From contig JAFRZX010000072.1 of the NCBI GenBank assembly GCA_017442315.1, positions 1-39,029 of the forward strand: DNA of 39,029 nucleotides, written 5' to 3'. The notes beneath the pieces were generated by a model, which saw only the letters and a list, made by a program, of their open reading frames with translations, was not told the origin of the DNA and made no database searches. Positions 562 to 37,523 of this stretch are shown here, piece by piece. Both the position numbers and the translations under genes were made by a program. Each line of letters starts with the position of its first letter. Position 1 is the first letter of the stretch. Source of the DNA: Bacteroidales bacterium (GTDB lineage Bacteria; Bacteroidota; Bacteroidia; Bacteroidales; UBA932).

Positions 562-3396
562 TTACCAGGAAACTGTTTCAGTAAAGACATTGCCGAACAT
601 ATCGTTAACCCTGATCTCTCCTTTCTTTACTCCAGGAGTCGGTGTCACCGTAAAGATGTTGGCGTTGTCAGCAGGTGTACAATATTTCCTTGTTGTCTTG
701 TTAGTGACTGAATTAAATATTTCAAGATATGCAGGATCCACTCCTGGAGTAAAAGACATATCCGCCACCTTCACCCCATTCTCATACCATTCAGGAGTGC
801 TCCAACCCTCGGACCAGTTCCAGATATTGACCTTGACAGTTGCATCTGAGGTCTTTTCAGGAGTATAGGCACGCATCTGGGTCTCCTTACCGGTGCCGAC
901 GCCTTTGTAGTACCAGCTCAAAGAATCCCCGCGGACTTCCATGACCATATAACCCTGAGGCTCTCCCTGAGCTGCAATCTCTCGATTCAGACGAAGAGCA
1001 CCTGTACAGCGCGCCACACTGATACACTGGATGTTAGGAGCACCATGAGGTGTTTTCTTACCCTCGTAATTATAATAGAAGTTCACGTGATTGTGTCCAT
1101 TCCATGCATACACAGCCTTATACTGCGCGAACAATGACAAATACTCCTTATAGTTCAGGCTATAAGCATTATGAGACCCGTGTGGAGAAGTATTCGGAGT
1201 CTTGAACGGATTGTGATGCGAACAAGTGAGGATGACCTTATCCTTAGGGACATTCGCAAGATCTGCCTTCACCCATGCGAGTGTTCTTTCATCAAGACCA
1301 TAGTAGTATCTTCCCGTAGGACTCTGACGGTCATACAATATGTCATTGAAGACCATATAATGGAAATTACCCAAGTCAAACGAATAGTGTGTCGGACCCA
1401 CATATGATTCATAATAGACATTTCCCTGTTCCGTCTCGAACATGGTTCCCTGGTCGTAGTCATGATTACCGATGACATTGAAGGTCGGACAGTTGATCTT
1501 TGCCGCTCCATCCATATAGTCATCCCAAGCAGGCATCTGATTATAAACAAGGTCACCGAGATTGATGCAATAGACCGGCTCTGAGCAAGATGCACGGAAA
1601 GCCTCTGCATCTGGGGCCACAGTCTCATGCCAGGTCTCCATAGACCCATCCACACCAAATGTCCTCACCTGCGGATCGGCAATCATCATGACAGTATAAT
1701 TCTCTGCAACATTCTGACGGTCAAGAATAAAATGAGCCTCTGCTGCAACTGCATGACGAGGAATCCTCTTATATGTCTGAGGGATACCGTTTCTCATAGG
1801 GAATGAAGCATCAGATGGCACACTGAGATATACGAAATTGGAAGCGTCAAGATCAGAATTCATAGCAAAACGTCCGTTCGCATCAGTCTTGACATACTGA
1901 AGGCCATCTGTCACCATAACACCCTCCCATGGTTTTCCGGACGAGTCGAGCACAGTTCCGACAAGGTTTCCATCAGCAACTGGAGCATCGAGAGCCTTTG
2001 CCCAATCTGAAGGCGCAGCACCTCCGGTAGTTGTTGACACAGCTGATCCGCAAATGCTGCCTGTGCGCCCTCCTTTGGAGTTTATGGTACCGTAGTTTGC
2101 ACAGTCAATCACGCATGAGCGCAGATCCTCGCGTCCTTCCATATAAGCAACGATACCTGCCGCATGAATGGCGTTTCTGTTATTTGAATCATACTTGTTT
2201 CCGCCAGCTCCGGCTGAAATGTTTCCATAATTTATACAAGAGCGAACATATGCTCCTGAAGTGGCTGCCTTCGGCACATATACATTACCGACAATACCAC
2301 CTGCAGTACTACGATTACGCGAACTCACGCCCTCGAAGATGACATCACCATAGTTGATACATCCGTGTACATGCACAGGACGGCCCATATTTCCGACGAT
2401 ACCGCCAGTCTGAGACGGAAGGTCTCCTGTAGACTTCACCGTACCATAATTCAAGCAATCAGCAACCACAAGCAGCTCGTGAGGCATACCGACAATACCA
2501 CCTATATTGGCACTGCACGCACCCATTGAAGTGATTGCACCGAAGTTTTCACATCTTGCCATATCACCTTTTGTCTGGCCGGCAATGCCACCCACGCGCG
2601 CAACACCTTTTGTCTGGCCGTCTTCTGACTCGCGTATATCAGCTACGACCTCACCCTTGTTGGTGCAGAACTTCATTGTTGCACGTCCCGGATAACCTGC
2701 TACTCCTCCGATATACAGTGACATCAGACTTGAGACAGCAGAAACCTTACCCTCGTTGACACACCTTGAGACTGTAGCCACGACAGGAACCTTACCAGGT
2801 GTACCACCGCAGATTCCTCCTACGGCAATCAAGACAGTCTCCTTCAATTCACCGGAAGTGTCAGATGTGACTTCGCCATAGTTCGCACAGTTATAGATGA
2901 TCATTTTATTATATCCTACCAGACCTCCTACCCATGACTGAGCAAGAGCATAGCTGCATGAATGGGTTACATTGCCATAGTTAACACAGTCACGGATGAC
3001 TCCGTTATTGTTATCGGCAATAAAACCCGCATGATGTTCATCTCCCTTTCCCACAGACTTCAGGCTGCAGGACGAGTCAATTACAAGATTCTGCACAAGG
3101 CCTGTTGCCGCAATGTCCAGAAAGAGGCCTCTGGTGGCCTTCCAATTACGCAGACGAAAGCCCTTACCATCAAATTTACCCTTGAATGAGCTGATCTGAG
3201 GCAGGTTCTTGACCTTTGACATATCTATATCTGCGCTCAGGCAGACAGTCGAGTCTGCATCGCACCACTGCATCACGCTTTCCCCATTGTTATAGGCCTG
3301 AATGAACGCCTGAAGGTCTTTAGCAGTGCCGATACCTTGTGCGTATGCAGCCGCATACGCACAAAGAACGGCTAATATTAAAATGATTCTTTTCAT
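562..3396 (-). CDS. Secreted GLUG-repeat / calcineurin-like phosphoesterase fusion
   Basis: A protein of about 944 residues. It has a signal peptide (MKRIILILAVLCAYAAAYAQ), then an N-terminal half of degenerate GLUG-type repeats (units like GGLVGYNKMIIYNCANYGEV, about 60-460), a carboxypeptidase-regulatory-like beta-sandwich (GTVLDSSGKPWEGVMVTDG, about 485-550), a metallophosphoesterase domain (about 567-790) and a C-terminal beta domain ending ...GNVFTETVSW. Metal-site motifs are visible: ADPQ, NLGDLVY, GNHD, CSHHNP and GHNH. The first motif is D-x-Q rather than the usual D-x-H. I start at ATG 3396 rather than at an upstream TTG (3402) because this ATG shares a base with the stop of the upstream gene (TAATG), a typical coupled junction. 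Probably a surface or periplasmic phosphatase or phosphodiesterase with a repeat domain for ligand binding or anchoring (inference). There is no lipobox cysteine, unlike its paralogs. Confidence 0.9.
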   Translation of the reverse strand: MKRIILILAVLCAYAAAYAQGIGTAKDLQAFIQAYNNGESVMQWCDADSTVCLSADIDMSKVKNLPQISSFKGKFDGKGFRLRNWKATRGLFLDIAATGLVQNLVIDSSCSLKSVGKGDEHHAGFIADNNNGVIRDCVNYGNVTHSCSYALAQSWVGGLVGYNKMIIYNCANYGEVTSDTSGELKETVLIAVGGICGGTPGKVPVVATVSRCVNEGKVSAVSSLMSLYIGGVAGYPGRATMKFCTNKGEVVADIRESEDGQTKGVARVGGIAGQTKGDMARCENFGAITSMGACSANIGGIVGMPHELLVVADCLNYGTVKSTGDLPSQTGGIVGNMGRPVHVHGCINYGDVIFEGVSSRNRSTAGGIVGNVYVPKAATSGAYVRSCINYGNISAGAGGNKYDSNNRNAIHAAGIVAYMEGREDLRSCVIDCANYGTINSKGGRTGSICGSAVSTTTGGAAPSDWAKALDAPVADGNLVGTVLDSSGKPWEGVMVTDGLQYVKTDANGRFAMNSDLDASNFVYLSVPSDASFPMRNGIPQTYKRIPRHAVAAEAHFILDRQNVAENYTVMMIADPQVRTFGVDGSMETWHETVAPDAEAFRASCSEPVYCINLGDLVYNQMPAWDDYMDGAAKINCPTFNVIGNHDYDQGTMFETEQGNVYYESYVGPTHYSFDLGNFHYMVFNDILYDRQSPTGRYYYGLDERTLAWVKADLANVPKDKVILTCSHHNPFKTPNTSPHGSHNAYSLNYKEYLSLFAQYKAVYAWNGHNHVNFYYNYEGKKTPHGAPNIQCISVARCTGALRLNREIAAQGEPQGYMVMEVRGDSLSWYYKGVGTGKETQMRAYTPEKTSDATVKVNIWNWSEGWSTPEWYENGVKVADMSFTPGVDPAYLEIFNSVTNKTTRKYCTPADNANIFTVTPTPGVKKGEIRVNDMFGNVFTETVSW

Positions 3397-5075
3397 TACC
3401 AAGTTATTGAAGCTGTATGAGTATTGCCGAAACGGTCCTTCACGCTGACTGTTCCGCTGCCATGTTCGCTGTCGACGTATGCACGGAACATCGAACTGTT
3501 GTTATTCTTATCCGGTACAAAATTTTCATTTACCCATGTCCACTCACCCTGAGTATGGTAGAAATTGGTTATATCCCAGTCACTGTATGAATACCGGTAA
3601 TCCTTTTCCGTTACTCTCTTCATCACAGAAGGAAGACCATCGACAATAAGACGGGGAGTCTGCCATAGTTCATCCCATAGGAAGACATTGACATAGATAT
3701 TCATATCTGTGGGACCATATGTTTTCGGAGGAAACACCTGCATCTGATAGGTCTCATCCAGAGGCTTGCCGGTGGACTTCATCATAGCCCTTCCGCTTTC
3801 ATCATAATCCCAGTCACGCCAGGTGTATTCAGGAAAGTCACCTCCCATATTCGCACCGCCATAAGCACCTCTCTGATAATACATCGGCTTGAACTTCCAG
3901 GAAATCTCTCCATTATTATAATCGACAACCACATATCCGCGAGGTGTCCCATTGGCTCCCAGATACTCATTATTCCACAAGGTTCCTGTAACACGCGATA
4001 CTGTATGGGTCTCAATAACAGGATCGGCAGTATCCACATAATTGAATGTGGTGTGGGTATGGCCCGCCCAGACATATGCCTTCTTGTATTTAGAGAGAAG
4101 ATACCTCAGGTCATTAAGATGGCTTCCCGTACGGTTGCTACCGCTCTCCGTCATCATCATCGGAGAATGTGCACAGACCATCAGCTGTGTATCAAAAGAC
4201 ACATGAGCCAAATCGTTCTTGACCCACTCCCATATCTCATCAGTAAGACCGGTAGCACAGTTATCATCAGCAGGACCATTACCGGGAGAAATCATGTTGT
4301 CAAGCATCAGATAATGAACCTTACCCAGATTGAACGAATAGTTCACAGGTCCCATCTGCTCGGCAAACGGTTTCCACGACTCAGAATCAGGCAAAGTCTT
4401 GTTGGTCTGGTCATGGTTTCCGATTACGTTATAGGTGGTGACACCTGTAATGGACATACCGTTCTTATACTGAGCCAGAAGTGTCAGATCCTGATGCACG
4501 ATGTCACCAAGACCGATGCCATAAACAGGATATGATTTGTTGGCCGCCACATACTCCTTCATATCGAGATACATATCCTCACACATATCAAGCGAACTGT
4601 AAGCGAACTTATCCAGACTGGCCGATCTCTTACGTGGCTGAGGATCACCGAACATCAGGACCTTGTAACGATTAGGATTGGATATCTTCTCCAAAGTGAA
4701 ATCGGCAACATACTTGCCGTTCGTATCCTTGCTGCAGTCCTTCAGCCATTTCCAGAAGGTCGCATGACCGTCCTGAACAGGAGCCGAGTATCCAGAAGGT
4801 GTAGAAACCATCACATACTCATGCTCTCCTCTGGAAAGATTTGAAGGAAGATAATAGCGTCCCTGCTTGTCTGTCTTCACGCAATACTGTCCGTCCGAAA
4901 CCACGACTCCCTCAAGGAGAGCGCCATCGTTTCCTTTAACAATACCGCTGATTGTCCAATCCTTAGGTGTGTCAGAATCTCCACCACCTCCTGCTGGGTC
5001 GGGCTCCTTGCCGCAAGAAACAAGGGCAAGAAGTGCGACCAGCATCAGAAAATATTTACAAAACTTCATAATCAT
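3396..5075 (-). CDS. Calcineurin-like phosphoesterase lipoprotein
   Basis: About 559 residues. The lipoprotein signal ends in ALVSC|GKEPD with the Cys near residue 21, followed by an acidic/glycine-rich spacer (PAGGGGDSD) of the kind found on exported Bacteroidetes lipoproteins. Next come a carboxypeptidase-regulatory-like N domain (SGIVKGNDGALLEGVVVSDG, about 40-100) and a metallophosphoesterase with GDPQPR (D about 144), GLGDIVH, GNHD (about 219-222), CAHSP and GHTH. A C-terminal beta domain ends in GNTHTASITW. The start is ambiguous: ATGs lie at 5093, 5075 and 5069. I prefer 5075 because it overlaps the upstream TAA as TAATG. It is paralogous to three other phosphoesterases in this operon and shares their D-x-Q first metal motif and their C-terminal INVFLWDELWQTP-like block. 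Role: hydrolysis of phosphate esters on a glycan at the cell surface (inference from family and locus). Confidence 0.9.
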   Translation of the reverse strand: MIMKFCKYFLMLVALLALVSCGKEPDPAGGGGDSDTPKDWTISGIVKGNDGALLEGVVVSDGQYCVKTDKQGRYYLPSNLSRGEHEYVMVSTPSGYSAPVQDGHATFWKWLKDCSKDTNGKYVADFTLEKISNPNRYKVLMFGDPQPRKRSASLDKFAYSSLDMCEDMYLDMKEYVAANKSYPVYGIGLGDIVHQDLTLLAQYKNGMSITGVTTYNVIGNHDQTNKTLPDSESWKPFAEQMGPVNYSFNLGKVHYLMLDNMISPGNGPADDNCATGLTDEIWEWVKNDLAHVSFDTQLMVCAHSPMMMTESGSNRTGSHLNDLRYLLSKYKKAYVWAGHTHTTFNYVDTADPVIETHTVSRVTGTLWNNEYLGANGTPRGYVVVDYNNGEISWKFKPMYYQRGAYGGANMGGDFPEYTWRDWDYDESGRAMMKSTGKPLDETYQMQVFPPKTYGPTDMNIYVNVFLWDELWQTPRLIVDGLPSVMKRVTEKDYRYSYSDWDITNFYHTQGEWTWVNENFVPDKNNNSSMFRAYVDSEHGSGTVSVKDRFGNTHTASITW

Positions 5076-7969
5076 TAAAGTGTTCCGTTCCATAGAGTTA
5101 TACCTGAAACCTTACCATGTCCGTTACCCACGGCAAGAGATTCCACATTGTTCGTGCTTACCTCAATACCGTTCACCTTGCCACCGAATCTGCATTCTTC
5201 CACAACAGTATCATCTTCAGAAACAGCAACAATACCTCCGCAAGCAAGAGGTTGATCTCCCTTATTGACGGTAAGATTACCATAATATGCACAATTCTTT
5301 ATATTTACACCTCCTCCTATAGCAAGTCCTAGTATACCTCCCGGACTCTGGATTTCAGAAGCCGGGTTAGAACAGAACACATCACATTTGGCAGTACAAT
5401 TCTCTACCTTTGAATCAGTGAGAGCACATGCAATTCCTCCCTTATATGCAGAATTGTTGCTGTTAGTGCTGTTCTGGCCTAAAGATCCCCAGTTGCTACA
5501 TGAAGATATTGAAGCATTTCTTGCATATCCTACAACACCTCCTACAGCTCCACGATAAGCTACTATCATTGAATTATTTACACAAGAGGTCATCGTAAGT
5601 TTTCCAGTGTCAAAGGAAGTTCTGTTTTCATATGCACCCAGAACACCGGCAGCGATGCAGGAGTTGTACCACCCGTTTGTAGCAGTCTGTTTAGGATGAC
5701 AGTTTGAATAGTGTTTGTTTGTAACCTCAGCCTTGTTCTCGCAGGAAATGAATTCAGCATCACCACCGACAACTACGCCAGCAATACCACCTAAGACAAT
5801 GATATAGTTCTTTGTGTTTGCACAGTTAGCACCTGATGTAAGTTTACCTATCTCAGCATTGTTGATACACGACTTGAATGATGCTGCTCCATTGATGAAT
5901 CCTGCGATACCTCCTATGAATCCACGTGAGATCTGTGAATTAGCACTTGTATTGTATGATGTAGAATATATACCGTTGTTTGACACATTCTCAAAGCTGA
6001 CTGAGACGGCAGCCTCTTCCAGATCGCAACCTCCGAATACTCCGCCCAGGAAAATATTTGACGCTGCACGGGTGACAGACTGATCAAGTGCAATATTGGT
6101 CTGGCACTCATAGCCCTTGAATGAGAGTGTAACACCTGCTTCCGCCTTTCCGACAAATCCACCTGCATATATCTCAGTAGTATTGGCACTTGCGTACGAA
6201 TCAATGTTGATACTACCTAGAGTAGCCGACTTATCTGAAACGATATCAAAACTGCGATCACTTTTAACACTTCCATAAAGTCCTCCTATAATAACATTGG
6301 ATGAACTTCCGCCAAGTGTCACTTTCCCCATGAACGAGTTGTTGCCTGCAACAGTCTCCTCTGGAAGAACACTTGTAATACCACCCACTACAAGATCAGT
6401 GATTCCTGAAGAAGACTTCAGTTCACCGGTCATCTCATTACCGGTAACCGTTCCCTCAGTCAGTCCGACAAGACCTCCGACATAGCCGCGCATCTGGGAA
6501 GAAGCTGAAGACAGAGAGATAGTTCCAGACATCTTTGATTTTGTCACGGTAGTTTTATCATCAGCATATCCGACTAAGCCACCTATATATGCAGGTTCAT
6601 CATTGTCATTTGTTGCTGCAAACTCCATATTTGCAGCAACCGTACAATCTGTCACTTTTGTTTCTTTTGCAACGGAAACAATTCCACCGAAAGCACCTTC
6701 AAGCCCAGTGTATTCCTTCTTATAATAGAGAGAACATCCTTTGCCAAGAACCACATTCTGGACAGTAGCTCCTTCGCAGTATGCAAAGAGGCCGGCAGCT
6801 TTGCTCCTGAGGTTATCGATTTCATGTCCGCCACCGTTGAACTGTCCTTTGAATGGAGACTCTTCAGTACCGATACCTGTCCAGCCTTCAACTTCAGACA
6901 TATCGATTTCACCTTTAACAGTCACCACACCGTTATCTTCCCAATCGGTAGTAGGTTTTCCTTCAGCAACAGCCTGAGCAAAAGTAAGCAGACCCTTACC
7001 TGTAACAAGACCATTGGCAGGAATATAATTCTGGACTATACCTGGTAGTTCAACAACAGATGAAGATGCATTGGAAAGCAGCAGAGACAACTCTACATAA
7101 CGATTCTCAGAACAATCACTGAGATTCTCTTTGAAAATAAAGTTCACTGTCGACGTACCATCCTCATTCTCGATCAATGTCGAACTCACATAATTTGGAT
7201 TCCTGACAGAATCGATAGTATATGCTGGGGCGGTAAGAGTCAGAGATGATCCCTCCGTCCCCTCAAGAAGGATGTTGTTTTCTGCATCATAAGTCAATTC
7301 TGTACCGAACTGGTAAACATTGATGTATCCTTTGTCTTCACCGGCAGAAAGTACTATGGATCCGTAACGTGATACACCATCGTTAGCCGATGACCTGATT
7401 GTCATGGCAGTAGTTGTAAGATCCGAATCAGAAAACGGTGTGTCTACGGTCACATCCATCCAATCTTCGGCTGTAAAGTCCCAGTCTGTTCCAGCTGGAG
7501 TAGTCACATTCACCATATAGGTATTGCCATCTATTCCTGACACGAAATAAGACTGTCCGATGATGAATGATGCAGCATTCTGGCTCACCGTAATCTCGAA
7601 TCCACGGTAGTCACCTGCTACGAATGTCAAGGTAGCAGGCTCACGGGACTCGAAATCTTCATTTGCCGCTATGTTCAGTGTCACAGTTCCGGATCCGCGA
7701 TGATCTTCAGGAACTACCTCGCACCAGTCTCTGTCACTCTCAAGATTCCACTTGAGGTTATCATTGTTCACTGTCACCTCAAGAACTTTCTTGACAGAAG
7801 CACTGGCTACTGTCAAAGACTTCACTTCAGTCCCCGCCAATGCATAAGATACTTCTATTGTGGTCTTCCCACGTCCGGCAAGAATCTCTTCGTCAGAGAT
7901 TTTCTCAACACAAGATGCAACCAGCATCAAAGTTGAAAGAATAAGGATATAACGATATATAAATTTCAT
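5075..7969 (-). CDS. BACON- and GLUG-domain surface lipoprotein, probable glycan-binding protein
   Basis: About 964 residues. The lipobox is MLVASC|VEK, with the Cys at residue 20 from the ATG at 7969 (a TTG three codons upstream is possible but would only lengthen the n-region). Residues about 35-135 look like a BACON domain (RDWCEVVPE...GSGTVTLNIAANED... ending EITVSQNA). A second, looser BACON-like unit follows (about 136-320). From about 340 on there is a GLUG array that begins with a cap, SPFKGQFNGGGHEIDNL, and repeats units such as GGLVGYADDKTTVTKSKM and GGIAGVVVGGDAEFISCEN. It lies directly after susC/susD, the usual slot of a surface glycan-binding protein. BACON domains often act as spacers or mucin/glycan-associated modules. 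The binding function is inferred from position and architecture. No catalytic motif is visible. Confidence 0.85.
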   Translation of the reverse strand: MKFIYRYILILSTLMLVASCVEKISDEEILAGRGKTTIEVSYALAGTEVKSLTVASASVKKVLEVTVNNDNLKWNLESDRDWCEVVPEDHRGSGTVTLNIAANEDFESREPATLTFVAGDYRGFEITVSQNAASFIIGQSYFVSGIDGNTYMVNVTTPAGTDWDFTAEDWMDVTVDTPFSDSDLTTTAMTIRSSANDGVSRYGSIVLSAGEDKGYINVYQFGTELTYDAENNILLEGTEGSSLTLTAPAYTIDSVRNPNYVSSTLIENEDGTSTVNFIFKENLSDCSENRYVELSLLLSNASSSVVELPGIVQNYIPANGLVTGKGLLTFAQAVAEGKPTTDWEDNGVVTVKGEIDMSEVEGWTGIGTEESPFKGQFNGGGHEIDNLRSKAAGLFAYCEGATVQNVVLGKGCSLYYKKEYTGLEGAFGGIVSVAKETKVTDCTVAANMEFAATNDNDEPAYIGGLVGYADDKTTVTKSKMSGTISLSSASSQMRGYVGGLVGLTEGTVTGNEMTGELKSSSGITDLVVGGITSVLPEETVAGNNSFMGKVTLGGSSSNVIIGGLYGSVKSDRSFDIVSDKSATLGSINIDSYASANTTEIYAGGFVGKAEAGVTLSFKGYECQTNIALDQSVTRAASNIFLGGVFGGCDLEEAAVSVSFENVSNNGIYSTSYNTSANSQISRGFIGGIAGFINGAASFKSCINNAEIGKLTSGANCANTKNYIIVLGGIAGVVVGGDAEFISCENKAEVTNKHYSNCHPKQTATNGWYNSCIAAGVLGAYENRTSFDTGKLTMTSCVNNSMIVAYRGAVGGVVGYARNASISSCSNWGSLGQNSTNSNNSAYKGGIACALTDSKVENCTAKCDVFCSNPASEIQSPGGILGLAIGGGVNIKNCAYYGNLTVNKGDQPLACGGIVAVSEDDTVVEECRFGGKVNGIEVSTNNVESLAVGNGHGKVSGITLWNGTL

Positions 7970-7980
7970 AATCTTCAATA

Positions 7981-9759: not shown

Positions 9760-9774
9760 GATGTTTCCTCTTTG

Positions 9775-13068: not shown

Positions 13069-13106
13069 ATAGGTTAGTTTTTATTGTGTATTTTTTCATA
13101 CGAGTA

Positions 13107-15491
13107 CTACCATGAAACTGAAGTCGAATAGACATTACCGAATCTGTCGGTCACCTCTACCCTACCTTCATCACTGCTTTTTGCCGAAACAATCCTGAAC
13201 AGACGTCTTGCAGCCTCATAATCCCACGTATAGTCTTCATCTGCAGACAATGATGCATTATTTGCCTTATAAAAATCATAGATTTCCTTCTGAGCAGCGT
13301 CATATCTGCAAGATCCTTCCGTCACCAATGTCATCATGCTTTCTGTGCCGTCCGAAGATATGTACTTCGGGGTATCCCAGTTCTCATCCCACATGAAAAT
13401 ATTAGCATAGACATAATTGTCGCCATATTGATGACGAGGATATACATTCATCTGATAAGATTCATCCAGACAGCCGCCATTCTTCATAACTGCGACACCA
13501 TTACCATCGTAGTTCCACGCACGAAGACTGTAAGAAGGTGTATTTCCAACAGGACGACCTGTCTGATATGGCAACGGACGGAACTTCCATGAGACATCCT
13601 TTCCATCAACATCAACTACAAGATAACCACGCGGGGTACCTCCTGCAAGGTATTCGTTTGTCCATAACTCACCTGTCGCGCGTGATATCGTATGTACCTC
13701 TATATTCCTTAGAGCAGAACTTTGATCATAAATAAAGTTGAACATATTATGTATATGCCCGGCCCATGCATATACCTTATCATAAGAAGAAAGCAAAGCG
13801 GCATAATCAGATCCATGTTCTGCATACCTTGACCTCTCACTTCCGTTCTCCTGCATGAACATAGGAGAATGTGCACAGACCATTAAAGGAGTATCCTTGT
13901 CAATATAGGAAAGGTCTGCCTGAAGCCACTGCCATATGTCATCTCGAAGTCCTTGGGTATATTCTCCCGTCAATACAGTTCCATCATCTGACATAATCAG
14001 ATTATCAAGTACCACATAATGGATTTTTCCTATATTGAACGAATAATTCACCGGACCGAATTTTTCTTCAAACACGCGCGCTCCTTCCACGTCATCAGGT
14101 GCAGAGAGATCATTATCATGATTACCTAACACATTGAAAGTCGGGAATCCCATCCTGCTCATACCACTTGTGACATAAGTATCGTACAAGGTCATATCAT
14201 TATGCACAATGTCACCCAAGACAATACCATAACATGGGCGGTCAATGAGAATCCTCTCTCCTTGTTCCCTCATATCACGATAAAGATCCTCACAGCAATC
14301 TAGAGAATGATATCCTATCCTGTCATATCCAGCTGTTCTTGCACGAGGTTGAGGATCAGCAGCAATCAGCAGAGAATATCTGTCCGAACCGGCTGCATTC
14401 TTATTCAAGACAAATTCAAAATTATATTTACCCTCTGCCACATATCCTTCCGAAAGTCTCTTATAGAATACAGGAGAACCGTTCATGACAGGTGCAGAAT
14501 ATCCTGACGGAACACTCACAAAAACAAATCTTGTCGAAGACTCGTCACTCTCCATAGCAAATCTTCCATCCTTTCCTGTCCTTACACAGTTCACTCCATC
14601 AGATACCACGACTCCTGGCAAAGGATTTCCTGAGTCATCCCGAACAGTTCCTCTTATATTTGAAAAGGGATTTATCGAAACATCGAGCAAAGTACCGGTA
14701 GGTACAAAATCAAATGACGGCATATCATAGACTTTTCCCGGTTCCAGCTCAGAGGAACTTTTCTTGCTGATATCCATATAATGTCCCTTGATATCAACCA
14801 GTCTGAAAGAATACCCGTTACTATACATGGCCGCAGGAACTACAATATACATCGGTGTTGTACCATGGGCCAATTGAGCCGACACTTCATAACGGACCAC
14901 ATTATCATTCTCCGCTTCAGAAATTCCTGACAGTGACGCATTTTCATAGTCTATGGCAAAGTCTCCGCAAACCTGCTCGTTATTTCTTCCTGAGAATTCA
15001 ACATATGCGATCCGGGAATGATCAGAACCGTCCGGTATATTCACATTCAGTTTGATCACAGAGCAGAGATGACGGAATACAAGATTATTTCCCTCTGTCT
15101 GATACGCAGCCATAGGAGAAGCTGTCTCGGCAAAGGTCGCCTCTTTGTATGTCTGTTTGAACGGCAAGGTAACAGTCTGGGCATCCTTGTATATGGATGC
15201 CGGAAAGAGAGCCTTATAAGGCAACTTCAGCAATCCTTTGAAAGAAAAGTGCACTGCTTCTGCCGGTTCATCAAGTTCCAGAGCCAACGAGGAGACACCA
15301 TTGACATTTACCATATCTCCGTCAGTCCACAGCACCTTGGTGTCATCAGTCAAAACCGTCCGGGTCTGAATACCGGCAGAAAGCAGAGTAAAATCACCGG
15401 ACAGTTCTTCCTGAATCAACTCATCCTTCATACAACCTGTAAAAAGAACAGATGATATTATGAACAATATAAAAAGTGACTGATTTTTCAT
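13107..15491 (-). CDS. Fimbrillin-like / calcineurin-like phosphoesterase fusion lipoprotein
   Basis: 794 residues. The lipobox is VLFTGC|MKDEL with Cys20. Residues about 25-268 form a fimbrillin-like beta module (TRTVLTDDTKVLWTDGDMVN; FRHLCSVIKLNVNI; MYIVVPAAMYSNGY; KVYDMPSFDFVPTGT). They closely match the N-terminus of the GLUG lipoprotein encoded at 18168-21416. A carboxypeptidase-regulatory-like domain follows (RGTVRDDSGNPLPGVVVSDG, about 280-340), then a metallophosphoesterase with ADPQPR (D379), VLGDIVH, GNHD (456-459), CAHSP and GHIHN, and a C-terminal beta domain ending in VYSTSVSW. The fimbrillin-like half probably anchors or binds at the surface (inference) and the other half hydrolyses phosphate esters. 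The gene sits between the GH127-like hydrolase and susC with short gaps. Confidence 0.9.
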   Translation of the reverse strand: MKNQSLFILFIISSVLFTGCMKDELIQEELSGDFTLLSAGIQTRTVLTDDTKVLWTDGDMVNVNGVSSLALELDEPAEAVHFSFKGLLKLPYKALFPASIYKDAQTVTLPFKQTYKEATFAETASPMAAYQTEGNNLVFRHLCSVIKLNVNIPDGSDHSRIAYVEFSGRNNEQVCGDFAIDYENASLSGISEAENDNVVRYEVSAQLAHGTTPMYIVVPAAMYSNGYSFRLVDIKGHYMDISKKSSSELEPGKVYDMPSFDFVPTGTLLDVSINPFSNIRGTVRDDSGNPLPGVVVSDGVNCVRTGKDGRFAMESDESSTRFVFVSVPSGYSAPVMNGSPVFYKRLSEGYVAEGKYNFEFVLNKNAAGSDRYSLLIAADPQPRARTAGYDRIGYHSLDCCEDLYRDMREQGERILIDRPCYGIVLGDIVHNDMTLYDTYVTSGMSRMGFPTFNVLGNHDNDLSAPDDVEGARVFEEKFGPVNYSFNIGKIHYVVLDNLIMSDDGTVLTGEYTQGLRDDIWQWLQADLSYIDKDTPLMVCAHSPMFMQENGSERSRYAEHGSDYAALLSSYDKVYAWAGHIHNMFNFIYDQSSALRNIEVHTISRATGELWTNEYLAGGTPRGYLVVDVDGKDVSWKFRPLPYQTGRPVGNTPSYSLRAWNYDGNGVAVMKNGGCLDESYQMNVYPRHQYGDNYVYANIFMWDENWDTPKYISSDGTESMMTLVTEGSCRYDAAQKEIYDFYKANNASLSADEDYTWDYEAARRLFRIVSAKSSDEGRVEVTDRFGNVYSTSVSW

Positions 15492-15516
15492 AGTTTAAAT
15501 ATTTATCAGCATCAAA

Positions 15517-17427
15517 CTACATTACATCTTGGTCATATAGCACAGGAAATACAGTCAGACGCAGATGAGTCAGACCATATGGCACCAATTCTATATTCTC
15601 TGACGGACCTTGCGCTGATGGCGCAACCGGAAGTCCAGGTGTAAGAATTTCGCCTTCAGGTCCCTTGTCGAATTCCCATTCAACCGGATAAGCCTGCACC
15701 TTAAGTCTAGGACCGTCAGCAGTATTTACAAACTCTGGACAAGCATCAGCCTTTAACGCATAGTTCCATGGGCCATCCGGGGTAATGCTCCAGCATGGGA
15801 AAGCCTCATCGTCCTCCGGATATTTTCCATTCATATTTGCGTAACGTACCGTATCCTTTTCCCATTTTGATGGAATATCGTATGCATACACAAGCGGGCC
15901 TCGTTCAAACCAGAGACCTCCCCCATGAGCAATCCTAGGCACAATCTGCATAGGCAGGTATAGTACGATTCTATCCCCATTCCTGAATGTTCTTTCAAGA
16001 TTGAAAAATGTACCAGCCTTGAGTTCCTCCTTCACACGCTTGCCGTTTACTGTCAGCACAGCATTATCGCACCAGAGAGGAATACGCAGACAAAGGCTGA
16101 TCTTCTTTGCCAGCTTCGCCTCTACACGGAAAGTAACAGTTTCATCATACGGATATGACGTATCTTCGATGAAAGTCAGATTGTCGTCATAACGGAAAAC
16201 AGAAGGTCCATAAAGGGCAGCGACCACCCTATCACCACTTCGAAGCCACATTCTGGCCGCATAGTTAGGCATCAGGCGATGGATCTGACCTGCGCAGCAC
16301 TCTGTCTGATGGGTTGGGCGGTAAGCCATCCATGTAGAACAGTAATTATCCTTATTGTGGTTTGATGTACCTGTACATATGAACTGATTGACAGACGAAT
16401 AGTACTGCAAAGACTTGAAATCGTTCGCAATCGATCCCATACCGGCATTGAAGACAATCTTCTCCATCATATCCGCATAGCGCGCTTCCTGCAGGATCTC
16501 AAGAAAGTATCCGAGTGTCCAGCACATGTCTATCGCATCACAGGTCTCGTGACTATGCATTATTCCACGTCCTTTGAGCCACTCGGCAGAAGTGAAAAGC
16601 CCGTCCGGAAGTCCGCACTCATGATAGAGACGGTCCAGTGAACTGACAGCAAGGTGCTTATAATAAGGATTGCCTGTCGCTTCATAAAGCATGACCGGAA
16701 GCTTCAGCATCTCACACATTGTCACGCCATGCATTTCATAAGGCTTGTCATCTGAAAGGAACTCTATCGTCACACGGCTGTCACGATGCTGTTTACCATC
16801 ACCAAGAATCTGCTTCCTATAACGATAGACAGAATCAGCCTTTGCAACAAGGCTTCTATCTCCGGTCTTCTTTGCAGTCCATAGCATGCCTTCAATGTTC
16901 ACAATATTACGTCTGCCGGCAAGGTCTCTTGTAGACAGTGCCTTGAAGTTCTTATGCAGCGCATCCAGAATCTCCTTGGATGGTTCAACATCATAGGCAG
17001 CCTTCATTGCACGGAAGAACACAGCCATCGGCCAATGATTCTTAATGTCGGGATTACCAAGAATGCCACTCGGCTGAGGGTGGTCAATCGTATACTTTAT
17101 CCCTCTCTCCGCCTTCTCTATCATATCCTTGTCATCAAGTAGATAACCAAGGCGAATCAATCCGTCAGTGTAATAAGCAGTCTGCTCATAACGCCACCAG
17201 ATACGGCCATGAGTTCCCATGCGCGGGATCTCGCCGTCCCATAGACACGTATTATAAGGATAAGAAAGAGCCTCCGGATGGCCTGTGAGACCATCTTTCT
17301 GCGACTGAAGATACTCCTTCAGCCAGCCCTCCGGCTGGATATCACGAAGTCCTACCTCCTCCCATGCCTGTGCCGACATAAGAGAAGATACACAAAGTAA
17401 AACTATTGTCAGGACTCTCGACTTCAT
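15517..17427 (-). CDS. GH127-like (DUF1680, beta-L-arabinofuranosidase fold) glycoside hydrolase
   Basis: 636 residues: signal peptide (cleavage near SAQA|WEEV), an (alpha/alpha)6-barrel region (about 25-420) and C-terminal beta domains. The Zn-cysteine catalytic cluster known from GH127 is recognisable as E294-x-C296 in HSHETCDAIDMCW and the pair C377-C378 in HQTECCAGQIHRLMPNYA. In characterised GH127 enzymes one cysteine of the pair is the nucleophile and the Glu also binds Zn. Other family landmarks include the AEWLKGRG stretch and the loops around GRIWWRYEQTAYYTDGL. Known members release L-arabinofuranose, but related DUF1680 families have other sugars as substrates, so the exact activity is uncertain. 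The gene follows the SGNH esterase with a gap of only 5 bases, suggesting that deacylation and glycosidic cleavage work together. Confidence 0.85.
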   Translation of the reverse strand: MKSRVLTIVLLCVSSLMSAQAWEEVGLRDIQPEGWLKEYLQSQKDGLTGHPEALSYPYNTCLWDGEIPRMGTHGRIWWRYEQTAYYTDGLIRLGYLLDDKDMIEKAERGIKYTIDHPQPSGILGNPDIKNHWPMAVFFRAMKAAYDVEPSKEILDALHKNFKALSTRDLAGRRNIVNIEGMLWTAKKTGDRSLVAKADSVYRYRKQILGDGKQHRDSRVTIEFLSDDKPYEMHGVTMCEMLKLPVMLYEATGNPYYKHLAVSSLDRLYHECGLPDGLFTSAEWLKGRGIMHSHETCDAIDMCWTLGYFLEILQEARYADMMEKIVFNAGMGSIANDFKSLQYYSSVNQFICTGTSNHNKDNYCSTWMAYRPTHQTECCAGQIHRLMPNYAARMWLRSGDRVVAALYGPSVFRYDDNLTFIEDTSYPYDETVTFRVEAKLAKKISLCLRIPLWCDNAVLTVNGKRVKEELKAGTFFNLERTFRNGDRIVLYLPMQIVPRIAHGGGLWFERGPLVYAYDIPSKWEKDTVRYANMNGKYPEDDEAFPCWSITPDGPWNYALKADACPEFVNTADGPRLKVQAYPVEWEFDKGPEGEILTPGLPVAPSAQGPSENIELVPYGLTHLRLTVFPVLYDQDVM

Positions 17428-17432
17428 ACGAA

Positions 17433-18149
17433 TTATCTGTTAAATGGATATTTCTTCTTGGACAGCAGTTTAGAAAACACATCATCCAGAGCTTTCTCCA
17501 TAGCCTTATAGCCTTCGAGGTTCGGATGGACAGCATCCTTCCTATACTCCTGTATCATTCCGCCGTCAGCACCCTTTGTTACTGCATGATAGTCCACAAG
17601 GGGAATTTTGTTAGCCGTAGCATATTCTACAATCATTGTATTGAGGGAATCGATCTGAGGACGAGGGTCGCCCACTCTCTTGCGCCAGCCGATCTCATCA
17701 GCCGCCACAAGCGTGCACATGACAGGCTTGATGCCGTTGCACTTTGCGAGTTCTACCATTGAAACAAGGTTACCGAATGTGTTTTCAACTGTAATGTAAC
17801 CGTTGTTGCGGGCTATATCGTTGATACCTGCAAGAATCACCACATACTCAGGTGCAAGCTCGATCACATCCTGACGGAAACGTACCAGAAGATGCATTGT
17901 TGTCTGTCCACCGATACCTCGCCCGACGAAGTTGCGTTCGTCAAGCCACGAAGCATCCTGACGCACCCAGTTGCGGGTGATGGAATCGCCGAAAAGGACT
18001 GCAAGCGGCTTTGTCTTTACCTCAGCGTTCTTTTCCTGATAGTAAGAAAAACGCGCCCAATCCTTGTCCTCCTTGGTAATCTCCTGAGCCACTGCCACTG
18101 AAGGGATCAGGGCAATGGCCAGGATTATAAAAAGTCTGAAGGTTTTCAT
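17433..18149 (-). CDS. SGNH/GDSL-type secreted esterase
   Basis: 238 residues with a signal peptide ending near VAVA|QEIT. All four SGNH blocks are visible: block I VLFGDSITRNW (catalytic Ser), block II GRGIGGQTTMHLL (Gly), block III ILAGINDI (Asn) and block V DAVHPNLEGYKAM (Asp and His). The size matches single-domain GDSL hydrolases related to acetylhydrolases, which remove acetyl or other acyl groups. It probably acts in the periplasm on esterified oligosaccharides (inference from the neighbouring GH127-like and GH3 enzymes). It lies 18 bases after the GLUG lipoprotein gene and 5 bases before the GH127-like gene. Confidence 0.93.
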   Translation of the reverse strand: MKTFRLFIILAIALIPSVAVAQEITKEDKDWARFSYYQEKNAEVKTKPLAVLFGDSITRNWVRQDASWLDERNFVGRGIGGQTTMHLLVRFRQDVIELAPEYVVILAGINDIARNNGYITVENTFGNLVSMVELAKCNGIKPVMCTLVAADEIGWRKRVGDPRPQIDSLNTMIVEYATANKIPLVDYHAVTKGADGGMIQEYRKDAVHPNLEGYKAMEKALDDVFSKLLSKKKYPFNR

Positions 18150-18167
18150 TTTTAGAGGTCTGCGGCA

Positions 18168-21100
18168 TTAGTCCAGAAGATATGTACCGGTAACGGTTGG
18201 AGTACCTGTACCAATCATCTTTGTATCAAGAGTGATTGCAGTGTCGAGAACAGAACCGCTTACAGCATTGTCTGTAAATACTGTAGCTTCATTACAATCA
18301 CCGGCAAGCACACCTGTATTAGTTGCAGCTATTCCAGTAATCTGGAGGTTATTCAAAGTATTTTCTTTAACTGTCGAAGAGTATGCGTAACCTGCAATAC
18401 CACCGCAAGCAAGACCACCACCGTTAGGACGAACAATCGAGTTGGTAAGAGTACAGCGCTCCAAATTGGAGAGATTCAGGGCAGCTACAAGACCTGCAGC
18501 TGTTGTAGAGTTGGTATTATAAATTTTAGTAGTACACTGACTGTTCTTGATGTCAGCATACTTTGCACCACCTACCAAACCTGCCGATGAGCCACGGAGT
18601 GTATAGATTGCATTAGTACCGTTACCTACACCGTCCTCAGTACCATCAATTCGGTTGTTTACGCAGCCAGTGAACTCAAGCAAGTCTCCCTCAGCACCCT
18701 CAAGGTAACCTGCAATACCTCCAAGATAGTTGCATCCTCCTGCTGTACGGATTAACCAAGCACCGTTTGTATTGTTTGACGAAGTGTTCGATAAACAACC
18801 TGTGTTCGAGCAGCTAGAAATGCTTGAAGCTCCATTTGTGAGAGCGCCTACGACGCCACCTACTGCAAGCGAACGACCATTCGTCTTAGTGCCACCGCCC
18901 TGAATAGCGACCGAACCGCTATTTTCGCACTCTACGAGAGCTACAGCCTGAGCATCAGCGTTTGTACCCAATACACCACCGACGCAGAGGTCGAAGTGCT
19001 GTGCACCAACCGATTTATAGATATTGATAACAGCTGTACCTTTATTCTCAAGCGATGTAAGAGTGAGAGCGCCGTTAGCGTAACCTACAACACCACCTAC
19101 CCAGATGTGCTTGTAGACATGAGTCGTACCGGATTCTGAATTGATAGTATAAAGTGCCGAACCCTCGTTTACTACACCCTTTACAGAACACTTAGCCTCA
19201 CCGACAACACCGCCAATAGCTGTGTACTTGTTGTTGTACTGCCCGTGATTAGACGAGATTGTAGCATAGTTCACAATATTGCCTTTACCATCAATTTCAC
19301 CTGCAGTAGCCTCAATCTTACCGATAACACCACCCATTGAGAGAGTCGCATTGGCATTGCTGTTCATACGTGAACAAAGAAGTTCAGCTTTATTTGTGAG
19401 GTTAGAAAGATCAGTAGAGAATGTAGCACCTATTACACCACCAATGTTGTTGTTACGAGCCTGGTAGTAACTATTACTTGCTGTTCCAGCCGAAACCTCT
19501 GCACCCTCGTTGGCACAGTTGTGAACAGAAGCCTGTGCCTGAACATTACCTACAACACCGCCAATATACTGCTGCAAGCAAGAGCTACGGTTCTCAAGAG
19601 AACCATACATTGTGCAGTACGAAAGGTCACCATAAATCTGACCAGCGATACCACCAGCATATAAGTAACGAGAAACATCGCCGTCACCACTATACTGGTT
19701 AAATTTAACCTGAGCGTAGTTATTACAGTTCGACACAGCGCCGCCCTCGGCAATCTCACCGGCAATACCTCCTACCCGTTGAGTACGGTAGTGGTTTTCA
19801 ACAGGATCTACTCCGCTTCCATAAACAAAGTTACCGTAGAAGAAAGTCTTGTCTGCCTCTGTGAGATGACACTCAGTACAAGTTCCTGCCAAAGAGCCAA
19901 CAATACCGCCATACTTCACAACAGCATCGCTCTTGTTAGAAGATCCATCTGCAATAAAGGTTGAACCTGCGCTGAGCGATACGTTACCCTTGATAGATAT
20001 ACCATTAAGCTCGCCATTCGCGTTCGATACACGACCTACAGCACCACCAAAGTAAGACGTCTGACCACTGGTTACGAGTGTATTATCAAAAGTCACATCA
20101 CCGTTTACAGTACAATTCTCTATTTTACCTACCACTACACGACCTGCGAGAGCACCGATATGAGGCTCCGCTTCGCCCCAGTTGCCAGAAGCTACAAGGT
20201 TTGCATTGACGTGACAGTTAGTGAGCAGACCACGGTGATATCCGACTAACGCACCGTAGTACTGGTTATTGCCTGCATAGTTTGCTGTCAAAGTACACGA
20301 AGCATCGATAGTCATGTTCTCAACGACACTACCGGCAGATGTATAAGCGAACAACGGACAAGTCGAGTTCCAATTCTTGATAGAAAAGCCCTTACCGTCA
20401 AAAACACCGTTGAAGTAGTTCGTATTACCCTCTGCATCATCAGCAGTTCCGATTCCCCCTGTAGCAGCATAAGCAGCCGAAGTCTCTGCATCAAAGGTGA
20501 TATCCTGAACCAATGCTACTGTAAGAAGGTCTTCATCAGCATACTTTCCTGTATTATAATCAGTTGCAAAGTCAATAAGATCCTCTGCTGTAGCGATCTC
20601 GACATCAAGGTCTGTGCCTGTAGGCACAAAATCGAATTCAGGCATATCATAAATCTTTCCTGCCACAAGGGTCTGTCCGCTTGCTTTGCTCTTTTCCATG
20701 AAATGTCCCTTGTCATCAAGCACCTTGATTGTATATCCGGACGCATATTCCTGAGCAGGAACAACGATGTACATCACGAAAGACTCTTCACCAAGAGTCT
20801 TGGACACCTTATAGCGAATTTTCCTGTCAGCATCAGCAGTTGATGTTCCGCTAAGAGAAAGTGTTTCGAAGTTGATAGAGAAATCACCGCTCACCTGCTC
20901 ATTGTTCTTTCCATAAAAATCAACGTACTCAATATTGTCATGTTCTGAACCATCAGACATATTCACAGTCAGTTTGATTACAGAGCAGAGGTGATTGAAC
21001 TGAAGGGAAGATGTTGCAGATACAGCAGCCATAGGTGAGGCTGTTGCTGCAAAGGAACCTTCCTTGTAAGTCTGATAAGCGGGAAGAGTTACTGTTGTCT

Positions 21101-21416
21101 CATTCTTGTAGATTGAAGAAGGGAACACAGCCTTATAAGGAGACTCAAGCAGTCCCTCAAAAGTGAATTGAGCAGAAGCCACAGCTTCATCAAGTTCAAG
21201 AGCAGCAGACTCGACTCCGTTCACATTGATCTTGTCTCCGTTTGTCCAGAGGACCCTCTGGTCATCCTGGAGTACAGTCCTGGTTGCTGCGTCTACATTT
21301 GCTGTAAGTACAGTCACACCACTCTGTGGCACATTTGGCTCTACTAAATTCTCCTTGACGCAACCAGCAACCAACAGAGAAGCCATCATAACGATAGGGA
21401 AAAATATTTTTTTCAT
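18168..21416 (-). CDS. Fimbrillin-like / GLUG-repeat surface lipoprotein
   Basis: 1082 residues with lipobox SLLVAGC|VKEN (Cys19). The N-terminal module (about 25-267) has TRTVLQDDQRVLWTNGDKIN, FNHLCSVIKLTVNMSDGS, MYIVVPAQEYASGY and KIYDMPEFDFVPTGT. It is a clear paralog of the N-terminus of the fimbrillin-like phosphoesterase in this operon. From about 275 the protein switches to a long GLUG array: cap GVFDGKGFSIKNWN, then units such as GALVGYHRGLLTNCHVN, GGIAGEIAEGGAVSNCNNYA and GGVVGYANGALTLTSLENKG, to a short tail. No catalytic motif is visible. It is likely an elongated adhesin-like or glycan-binding lipoprotein (inference). The start at 21416 is the only ATG ahead of the signal peptide. 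Confidence 0.85.
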   Translation of the reverse strand: MKKIFFPIVMMASLLVAGCVKENLVEPNVPQSGVTVLTANVDAATRTVLQDDQRVLWTNGDKINVNGVESAALELDEAVASAQFTFEGLLESPYKAVFPSSIYKNETTVTLPAYQTYKEGSFAATASPMAAVSATSSLQFNHLCSVIKLTVNMSDGSEHDNIEYVDFYGKNNEQVSGDFSINFETLSLSGTSTADADRKIRYKVSKTLGEESFVMYIVVPAQEYASGYTIKVLDDKGHFMEKSKASGQTLVAGKIYDMPEFDFVPTGTDLDVEIATAEDLIDFATDYNTGKYADEDLLTVALVQDITFDAETSAAYAATGGIGTADDAEGNTNYFNGVFDGKGFSIKNWNSTCPLFAYTSAGSVVENMTIDASCTLTANYAGNNQYYGALVGYHRGLLTNCHVNANLVASGNWGEAEPHIGALAGRVVVGKIENCTVNGDVTFDNTLVTSGQTSYFGGAVGRVSNANGELNGISIKGNVSLSAGSTFIADGSSNKSDAVVKYGGIVGSLAGTCTECHLTEADKTFFYGNFVYGSGVDPVENHYRTQRVGGIAGEIAEGGAVSNCNNYAQVKFNQYSGDGDVSRYLYAGGIAGQIYGDLSYCTMYGSLENRSSCLQQYIGGVVGNVQAQASVHNCANEGAEVSAGTASNSYYQARNNNIGGVIGATFSTDLSNLTNKAELLCSRMNSNANATLSMGGVIGKIEATAGEIDGKGNIVNYATISSNHGQYNNKYTAIGGVVGEAKCSVKGVVNEGSALYTINSESGTTHVYKHIWVGGVVGYANGALTLTSLENKGTAVINIYKSVGAQHFDLCVGGVLGTNADAQAVALVECENSGSVAIQGGGTKTNGRSLAVGGVVGALTNGASSISSCSNTGCLSNTSSNNTNGAWLIRTAGGCNYLGGIAGYLEGAEGDLLEFTGCVNNRIDGTEDGVGNGTNAIYTLRGSSAGLVGGAKYADIKNSQCTTKIYNTNSTTAAGLVAALNLSNLERCTLTNSIVRPNGGGLACGGIAGYAYSSTVKENTLNNLQITGIAATNTGVLAGDCNEATVFTDNAVSGSVLDTAITLDTKMIGTGTPTVTGTYLLD

Positions 21417-27360: not shown

Positions 27361-27423
27361 ATTTGATTTTAGTGTTGTCATTATGAAGTTTGGCAAAAGT
27401 GCATATTAATTCAGCCCCCCCCA

Positions 27424-27454
27424 TTCGATTTTATGACTTTTTTATCTAATTTTG
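27424..27454 (+). promoter_or_regulatory. Bacteroides-type promoter for the HTCS-like regulator
   Basis: TAATTTTG at 27447-27454 fits the Bacteroides -7 consensus TAnnTTTG exactly. TTCG at 27424-27427 lies 19 bases upstream and matches three of four bases of the -33 TTTG. Transcription would begin near 27461, after the first in-frame ATG (27433) and just before the ATG at 27478, which decides the start of the regulator. Confidence 0.6.
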
Positions 27455-27477
27455 CGTCATGTGCAAATTTTGGCGAT

Positions 27478-35094: not shown

Positions 35095-35110
35095 AAATTT
35101 ATGTTCATTG

Positions 35111-35118
35111 CAAATATA
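35111..35118 (-). promoter_or_regulatory. Candidate -7 element for the DGIQRL/HEPN operon
   Basis: On the minus strand TATATTTG fits TAnnTTTG exactly and sits 16 bases ahead of the ATG at 35094. No TTTG is found at the expected -33 distance, so this is a half-site match only. Confidence 0.4.
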
Positions 35119-35163
35119 GCGATTCTAATGAATTATTTCCGCAGTTGATTAATTATATATAAC

Positions 35164-35195
35164 TTTGGTTCAGAATAAATTTTAAAGTATTTTTG
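35164..35195 (+). promoter_or_regulatory. Bacteroides-type promoter for the restriction-modification operon
   Basis: TTTG at 35164-35167 and TATTTTTG at 35188-35195 are separated by 20 bases, an almost ideal -33/-7 pair. Transcription would begin near 35202, about 10 bases before the methyltransferase ATG, so the 5' leader is very short. Confidence 0.7.
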
Positions 35196-35211
35196 TGTAA
35201 AATTACACTAA

Positions 35212-37514: not shown

Positions 37515-37523
37515 AATTACTCA

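Follow-up and report, generated by a model that had tools for sequence, protein, structure and literature searches.

The window analyzed here is a stretch of 39,029 nucleotides (contig JAFRZX010000072.1, or C43, of the Bacteroidales bacterium assembly GCA_017442315.1), and it carries a polysaccharide utilization locus (PUL). The same genome, 2.8 Mb in 173 contigs, holds a sister PUL on contig C148. We consider it reasonably probable that the window locus belongs to a genus-wide kind of PUL in which surface proteins combine a lipoprotein spacer, either a fimbrillin-like module (fim) or a BACON domain, with an exchangeable part, either a GLUG-repeat binder or a calcineurin-like phosphodiesterase (metallophosphoesterase, MPE), that these halves have been swapped, and that the fim-MPE protein of the window arose independently of the common fim-MPE proteins. 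The module proteins of the window are the following.

562..3402, minus strand: GLUG-MPE, with the GLUG part at about 1975-3339, the MPE at 562-1974 and a type I signal peptide recognized by eye
3396..5093, minus strand: lipoprotein MPE (lipo-MPE), assigned by Pfam and nested in the lipo-MPE clade
5075..7978, minus strand: BACON-GLUG lipoprotein (BACON 55.4 bits, GLUG 41.3 bits)
13107..14660, minus strand: calcineurin-like phosphoesterase half of fim-MPE (MetallophosN, Metallophos, MetallophosC)
14661..15491, minus strand: fim module of fim-MPE, a lipoprotein signal plus fimbrillin-like domain, assigned by identity to other fims
18168..20582, minus strand: GLUG half of fim-GLUG (GLUG 57.2 bits)
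20583..21416, minus strand: fim module of fim-GLUG (Mfa_like_1 24.9 bits, below the cut-off; 63% identity to the C148 fim)
21591..23000, minus strand: bare MPE, only distantly related to the rest of its family (Pfam, MPE tree)

Origin of the window fim-MPE protein

A preliminary description of this DNA had taken the fim halves of 13107-15491 and 18168-21416 for clear paralogs that diverge just after a shared DFVPTGT, and both observations held. The modules share 54% identity in a global alignment of the whole module (55% in the other comparisons; BLASTP E 5e-92), and the similarity ends right past DFVPTGTxLDVxI. This resemblance is far beyond chance. The event behind it is old and not a recent copying: at the DNA level identity is 68% over 393 bases.

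The fim of the window fim-MPE is 55% identical to that of the window fim-GLUG, 51-52% to that of C148, and 54-55% to that of L076 (a locus in a metagenome-assembled genome from water-buffalo colon); none of the 28 other fim-MPE fims compared exceeds 38%. In 28 of 29 fim-MPE proteins the closest fim belongs to another fim-MPE and not to a fim-GLUG. The sole exception is the window protein, for which the fim-GLUG of its own locus (55%) is ahead of the best-matching fim-MPE (38%). Its enzyme half shares 59% identity with the stand-alone MPE of C148 and 45-53% with 30 other fim-MPE proteins.

The trees agreed with these values. The fim half of the window fim-MPE fell in a four-row clade together with three fim-GLUG fims, from the window, C148 and L076 (support 100/100), and 26 of the 29 fim-MPE fims formed one clade (100/98), with L135 and L168 lying among the fim-GLUG fims. 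Placing the window fim with the main 26 was rejected by the approximately unbiased (AU) test (p 0.0018). The enzyme half grouped with the C148 stand-alone MPE (100/100), outside the main fim-MPE clade, in which the 30 other fim-MPE enzyme halves and four rows lacking a fim match made up 34 rows (100/99). Forcing it to join the other fim-MPE proteins was 138.6 log units worse (AU p 1.7e-51), and forcing it to join them together with three fim-less sisters was 64.5 log units worse (p 8e-7). The long branches flagged in the careful MPE tree were the bare MPE and the C148 GLUG-MPE, and the window fim-MPE row was not among them. The quick fim tree was built without L117 (same contig as L076) and without fim matches that did not exceed 200 residues; the careful fim tree was built without 17 loci, matches shorter than 215 residues and two short proteins, which left 29 fim-MPE proteins compared with 33 in the annotated loci. 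The careful MPE tree retained 7 rows labeled GLUG-MPE and was built without L069, L072, L074, L075, L094, L117, L169 and MPE matches shorter than 330 residues. The junction of the window protein reads FDFVPTGTLLDVSI, continuing PTGT-LLDVSI in the manner of fim-GLUG proteins; many other fim-MPE proteins have an acidic EEVLxPDG-like linker at this point. Because the fim half sits with fim-GLUG proteins and the enzyme half with the stand-alone MPE of the sister PUL, the window fim-MPE is credibly a separate fusion or swap of parts from a sister-PUL-like locus.

The gene order on C148 follows that of the window: SGNH (71% identity), fim-GLUG (37%), SusC (56%), SusD (38%), BACON-GLUG (28%), the stand-alone lipoprotein MPE and GLUG-MPE (38%). 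The stand-alone MPE (58-59% identity to the window fim-MPE enzyme half, 42% to the window lipo-MPE) occupies the slot of the lipo-MPE. An open reading frame (ORF) of glycoside hydrolase (GH) family GH20 lies between SGNH and fim-GLUG, and further ORFs encode GH97 and an FAD oxidoreductase. In the 40 kb of C148 examined, neither a fused fim-MPE nor a GH127 was matched. Searches of relatives for additional C148-like loci returned only genomes matched in the genus-wide draw described below, and added no C148-type fim to the one of L076/G474.

Two other histories would make use of the same parts. The window protein could be an old fim-MPE of the C148 lineage, the fim of which was overwritten by conversion from a fim-GLUG gene, with C148 losing its own fim later. 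Such a history, which we regard as rather unlikely, suits the placement of the MPE half as sister to C148 and of the fim half as sister to fim-GLUG, the fim-GLUG type of the junction, and the recent conversion evident in locus L073. However, the C148 MPE stands in the lipo-MPE slot, has its own lipobox and shows no fim remnant by eye, and what sets the proposal apart from a separate fusion or swap is just the sequence in which the events took place. Alternatively, a sister-PUL-like locus already possessing this fim-MPE could have supplied the upstream part of the window locus (fim-GLUG, SGNH and fim-MPE) as a single block, which was joined to a main-type block running from SusC to GLUG-MPE. 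SusC, lipo-MPE and GLUG-MPE are indeed of the main type, and both window fims and, weakly, the SGNH (93, short of a strong branch) are C148-like, but the GH127 gene that lies between SGNH and fim-MPE has main-type matches of 62-69% and none in the C148 stretch examined. A block mosaic is a possibility that we regard as less probable than not.

Several points limit the case for swapping in fim-MPE proteins. The groups for the AU tests were chosen after the quick trees had been inspected, making the p-values somewhat flattering, and the oddity of the protein is visible only once fim-GLUG and stand-alone rows are included. Within the 29 fim-MPE proteins, the trees of the fim and MPE halves conflicted at 0 of 6 and 0 of 11 strong branches (ultrafast bootstrap of at least 95), and the controls gave 0 of 5 twice (N versus C part of fim) and 1 of 7 and 1 of 10 (N versus C part of MPE). 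The correlation of fim and MPE distances was 0.40 (0.27 without the window protein) compared with 0.57 and 0.75 in the controls. Since the halves show no strong conflict, swapping is not general for the fim-MPE architecture. A second fim swap, suggested by the trees for L135 and L168, was dropped after the AU test (p 0.49).

Exchange of GLUG halves between fim anchors

In the fim-GLUG set, one group of trees was built from the fim part and another from the 420 residues that follow it, and the two were compared. The comparisons used 47 of 52 rows (more than 500 residues after the fim; L127, L128 and L173 left out), with GLUG pair identities taken over the first 250 residues of the GLUG half. 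Strong branches of the fim and GLUG trees conflicted in 14 of 19 and 15 of 24 cases. In the controls on the same 47 proteins, conflicts were found at 0 of 15 and 0 of 15 strong branches between the N and C parts of fim, and at 1 of 14 and 3 of 23 between the N and C parts of GLUG. Between the C part of fim and the N part of GLUG, strong branches conflicted in 8 of 15 and 8 of 14 cases. The rank correlation of pairwise distances was 0.31 across the junction versus 0.57 and 0.79 within modules.

Individual pairs illustrate the pattern in both directions. L107 and L122 share 83% identity in fim and 40% in GLUG, and the reverse is found for L123 and L130 (38% and 78%) and for L160 and L114 (38% and 77%). 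In 20-residue windows, the identity of L123 and L100 is 30-50% through the fim; it reaches 65% over the final 20 fim residues and 100% over the 20 that follow. Several breaks lie at or close to the PTGT junction. At L073:8735-14418, the C halves of two adjacent genes share 87% DNA identity over 1.7 kb, including blocks of 100%, and their N halves share 10-50% amino acid identity, the N half of the second gene having no match to the fim model; this is apparently a recent conversion within one operon. L134 has a GLUG half of the fim-GLUG type behind a BACON domain. Taken together, GLUG halves have been exchanged between fim anchors, as seen best in the fim-GLUG proteins of relatives.

Some features fit this interpretation less well. 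The identity of L107 and L122 falls gradually: at the junction it drops from 90% to about 50-75%, and it does not go under 40% until roughly 100 residues later. The L073 break is located about 50 residues inside the GLUG part. Grouping the GLUG half of the window fim-GLUG with those of C148 and L076 was not rejected (p 0.41). The proposal that this protein is itself a chimera was dropped for that reason, and it may have kept its original halves.

Because the genomes are multi-contig drafts, chimeric genes could in principle be artefacts of metagenome assembly. In three pairs with differing fims and alike GLUG halves, however, the stretch of 40 residues that leads up to the break is just 48-66% identical at the DNA level, too low for joining by an assembler. 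Moreover, the same GLUG type is found on one fim type in two genomes (L103 and L104), and the chimeric genes remain in frame, all of which makes an artefact extremely improbable.

Two fim-only ORFs, L106:5020-5844 and L110:10954-11871, end a few residues past the PTGT junction, and no GLUG motif was seen by eye in the three frames of the next 400 bases. At L129:5063-9293 there are two tandem stretches with 82% identity over 1.4 kb, one of which starts a fim protein with a C half matching no part of the window.

The locus and its relatives across the genus

A fim profile made from three rows was run against 400 genomes of the genus, conceivably Cryptobacteroides, and 393 of the order; at E of 1e-15 or lower it matched 188 and 4 of them, respectively, the source genome being included in both. 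A family-wide draw, in which the best outside matches had 28-31% identity, had suggested that the fim module is nearly private to the source genome, but the genus-wide draw overturned this. A pattern scan of public genome contigs, which detects close relatives only, confirmed one locus, L076. The annotated loci of 48 genomes (the source genome included), picked mainly among the strongest matches and not randomly, contained fim proteins of the fim-GLUG type (62), the fim-MPE type (33) and other types (13), the type being assigned by the best BLAST match behind the fim. Fim-GLUG was present in 38 of these genomes, fim-MPE in 26 and both in 22, and in 17 of the 48 the two genes lay side by side on the same strand within 400 bases. 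The gene-by-gene annotation excluded L001-L066, L077-L091, L137 and L139-L154; the MPE domains of L038-L066 entered the quick MPE tree.

The shared layout is illustrated by L098-L099, where the order is two fim-GLUG genes, GH127, SGNH (fused to GH97), fim-MPE, SusC, SusD, BACON-GLUG, lipo-MPE, GLUG-MPE, fim-GLUG, fim-MPE and an endonuclease/exonuclease/phosphatase (EEP) gene. Identity to the window is 74% for SusC, 65% for SusD, 66% for lipo-MPE, 58/66% for GLUG-MPE, 62% for GH127 and 69% for SGNH, and these loci carry extra fim-GLUG and fim-MPE genes. SusC proteins of main-type loci share 71-76% identity. Since relatives' loci repeat the gene order and the fusions of the window, the fused layouts predate this operon, and the construction kit is real but belongs to the genus.

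The preliminary description had attributed the set to duplication and module swapping within the operon. Swapping is real, and credible for the window fim-MPE, but most of it did not happen inside this operon; birth of all the fusions there was ruled out by the same fused genes in genus relatives and by the trees. GLUG-MPE, BACON-GLUG and lipo-MPE of the window match the orthologs of relatives better than anything within the locus. The window GLUG-MPE is sister to L112 in a group made up entirely of GLUG-MPE phosphoesterase domains (15 rows, 99 in the quick MPE tree; 100/92 in the careful one), and the lipo-MPE lies inside a 16-row lipo-MPE clade (97/97). BACON-GLUG likewise goes with identically organized genes, as judged by BLAST identity only (BACON 39-52%, GLUG 36-44%). 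An origin within the locus is therefore refuted for these three. It is not refuted in this way for the window fim-MPE and fim-GLUG.

It could be argued that all the fused proteins are simply orthologs of identically organized ones, inherited vertically as wholes, and that the similarity of modules within the locus is ancient and unimportant. On present evidence this holds for GLUG-MPE, lipo-MPE, BACON-GLUG and SusC. As an account of the whole set it is improbable, being rejected by the AU tests for both halves of the window fim-MPE and contradicted by the branch conflicts for fim-GLUG as a class.

An adjacent SusC/SusD pair, degradative enzymes and a regulator identify the region as a PUL. Reading down from the regulator, the minus-strand genes encode GH3, GxDLY/SGNH, NAGPA, bare MPE, fim-GLUG, SGNH, GH127-like, fim-MPE, SusC, SusD, BACON-GLUG, lipo-MPE, GLUG-MPE and the start of an EEP-type protein. 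A single operon is plausible because the intergenic gaps are short. The EEP-type protein is truncated by the window edge and had no match in the Pfam scan; its label comes from a relative, L099 18466-19299, which matches Exo_endo_phos. The genes around the module proteins are the following.

7981..9759, minus strand: SusD-like lipoprotein (PF12771, 192.7 bits)
9775..13068, minus strand: SusC-like TonB-dependent transporter (76% identity to L123)
15517..17427, minus strand: GH127-like enzyme (Pfam; 62-69% identity to relatives)
17433..18149, minus strand: SGNH esterase (Pfam; relatives fuse SGNH to GH97 or a GH27-like domain)
23102..24055, minus strand: NAGPA-type phosphodiester glycosidase (PF09992, 110.5 bits)
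24067..25188, minus strand: GxDLY/SGNH esterase (Pfam)
25246..27396, minus strand: GH3 (Pfam)
27433..31389, plus strand: hybrid two-component-type regulator, divergent (Reg_prop, Y_Y_Y, HTH_18)

The SGNH domain changes partners: it stands alone in the window (17433-18149), follows GH97 in L098:14983-17604 and precedes a GH27-like domain in L104:1084-3261. Next to the PUL, positions 33168-38810 have low GC (35-39%) and encode a DNA methyltransferase (type II MTase models), an HNH endonuclease, and AbiH-like and DzbA-like proteins. This is a restriction/defence cluster neighboring the PUL.

The module positions were confirmed by ORFs, Pfam and BLAST, with qualifications for GLUG and fimbrillin. 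All six module proteins correspond to long minus-strand ORFs. Three gene ends given earlier are alternative ATG starts: 3396 (versus TTG at 3402), 5075 (versus ATG at 5093) and 7969 (versus TTG at 7978). MetallophosN, Metallophos and MetallophosC exceeded their gathering scores in all four phosphoesterases (562-3402, 3396-5093, 13107-15491 and 21591-23000). By BLAST, the enzyme half of fim-MPE is 45% identical to lipo-MPE, 32% to GLUG-MPE and 28% to the bare MPE. The GLUG model (PF07581) exceeded its gathering score in 18168-21416 and 5075-7978; in 562-3402, GLUG is backed by BLAST to 18168-21416 (25% over 517 amino acids, E 3e-21) but not by Pfam, which gave none at E of 0.01 or lower.

The name fimbrillin-like holds as a weak resemblance to Mfa_like_1 (PF13149) but not as family membership, the gathering score of 27 not being reached: the scores were 24.9 bits in 18168-21416 and 23.6 bits for the N half of 13107-15491 scanned alone, and the scan of the whole 13107-15491 protein gave no Mfa_like_1 match at E of 0.01 or lower. 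At this threshold 7 of 32 fim modules matched (best E 9.3e-9). Sequence searches of the PDB with fim modules gave no match for A2 and one non-significant match for A5 (E 0.088). The description of the proteins as surface proteins suits 13107-15491, 18168-21416, 3396-5093 and 5075-7978, in which a lipobox was recognized by eye, but 562-3402 and 21591-23000 seem to have ordinary signal peptides.

The metal-site motifs GD, GNHD and GHxH are kept in the four aligned window MPEs. Among 61 MPE rows, with the eight commonest forms counted, GNHD was present in 61, GHxH in at least 57 and GDxH in 3. The usual form of the first metal motif is DxH. In this family it is DxQ (DPQ, once DAQ) in 61 of 61 rows, without DxH.

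Proposed function, known systems and significance

The lipobox and the fim or BACON module would serve as anchor and spacer, presenting the working part on the outer membrane next to SusC/SusD. The GLUG halves would bind glycan, and the phosphoesterases, together with NAGPA, EEP and SGNH enzymes, could act on a decorated glycan by removing its phospho(di)ester and acyl substituents. The enzyme content differs among loci (GH3, GH127, GH20, GH97, GH27-like), and for this reason we propose, with low confidence, only a phosphate- and ester-decorated glycan as the substrate. Swapping may be driven by homologous recombination or gene conversion between neighboring and sister-locus paralogs. A blastn self-comparison (E of 1e-10 or lower, 80% identity, at least 80 bases) found no long repeat between the module genes of the window and C148 that would mark an exchange; the single match, of 95 bases, lies outside them. 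Window positions 31288-31381, at the end of the regulator gene, match L067 5264-5358, just before the sister-PUL regulator gene, over 95 bases with 86% identity.

The spacer principle is already known from DUF1735 and BACON proteins. According to excerpts of PMC11216935, BT3986 (DUF1735+LamG3) and BT3987 (DUF1735+GH18) are encoded in the same PUL, DUF1735+GLUG occurs in 32 UniProt cases, and the spacer role of DUF1735 is argued from architecture and structure. The same arrangement is found here, where one N-terminal lipoprotein module carries unrelated C-termini within one PUL, and a binder and an enzyme share one N-terminal type, as in the published case, where that type is a lipoprotein beta-sandwich (PMC11216935, excerpts). 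The domain family is a different one, however, and exchange between halves is untouched in those excerpts of PMC11216935. No DUF1735 match was found in the window proteins at E of 0.01 or lower, and they are not assigned to that family. BACON proteins such as BoGH5A likewise have an N-terminal spacer (PMC11216935, excerpts), and the window locus has BACON+GLUG; the difference is that in this case GLUG halves are attached to BACON as well as to fim (window 5075-7978; L134). The preliminary description knew of no PUL organized like this one. Among the literature matches listed, as excerpted, no description of exchange between fim and GLUG halves was found; the shared spacer is published for DUF1735 (PMC11216935).

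The nearest solved relatives of the MPE modules by sequence are purple acid phosphatase 6git, phosphohydrolase 2zo9/2dxl (2zo9 is presumably GpdQ) and acid sphingomyelinase-like phosphodiesterase 3b. The three Pfam domains and the metal motifs are kept in the window proteins, for which activity is predicted; the window enzymes differ in being fused to fim or GLUG and in the DxQ first motif. A parallel for PUL surface parts that differ between close relatives is the fructan PUL of B. thetaiotaomicron, where, in the excerpts of PMC5967196, SusC/SusD vary among strains. In contrast, SusC is fairly conserved among main-type loci here and it is the halves of accessory lipoproteins that are exchanged.

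Few components of gut glycan foraging are less well understood than the accessory lipoproteins of PULs. A further, speculative proposal, which we put forward as doubtful but possible, is that cassette exchange is continuing in this genus, with deeply diverged GLUG binders passing between anchors by conversion near a fixed PTGT boundary and MPE halves joining rarely, as in the window. If true, this would reshuffle surface binding specificity, or recognition by phages or antibodies, leaving the import channel comparatively conserved. Binder halves move between anchors, in many cases with breaks close to one boundary, and fim-MPE halves mostly travel together, which makes the assignment of specificity and location to one half or the other testable with natural chimeras. 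For such proteins, whole-protein orthology and annotation by domain counts may mislead.

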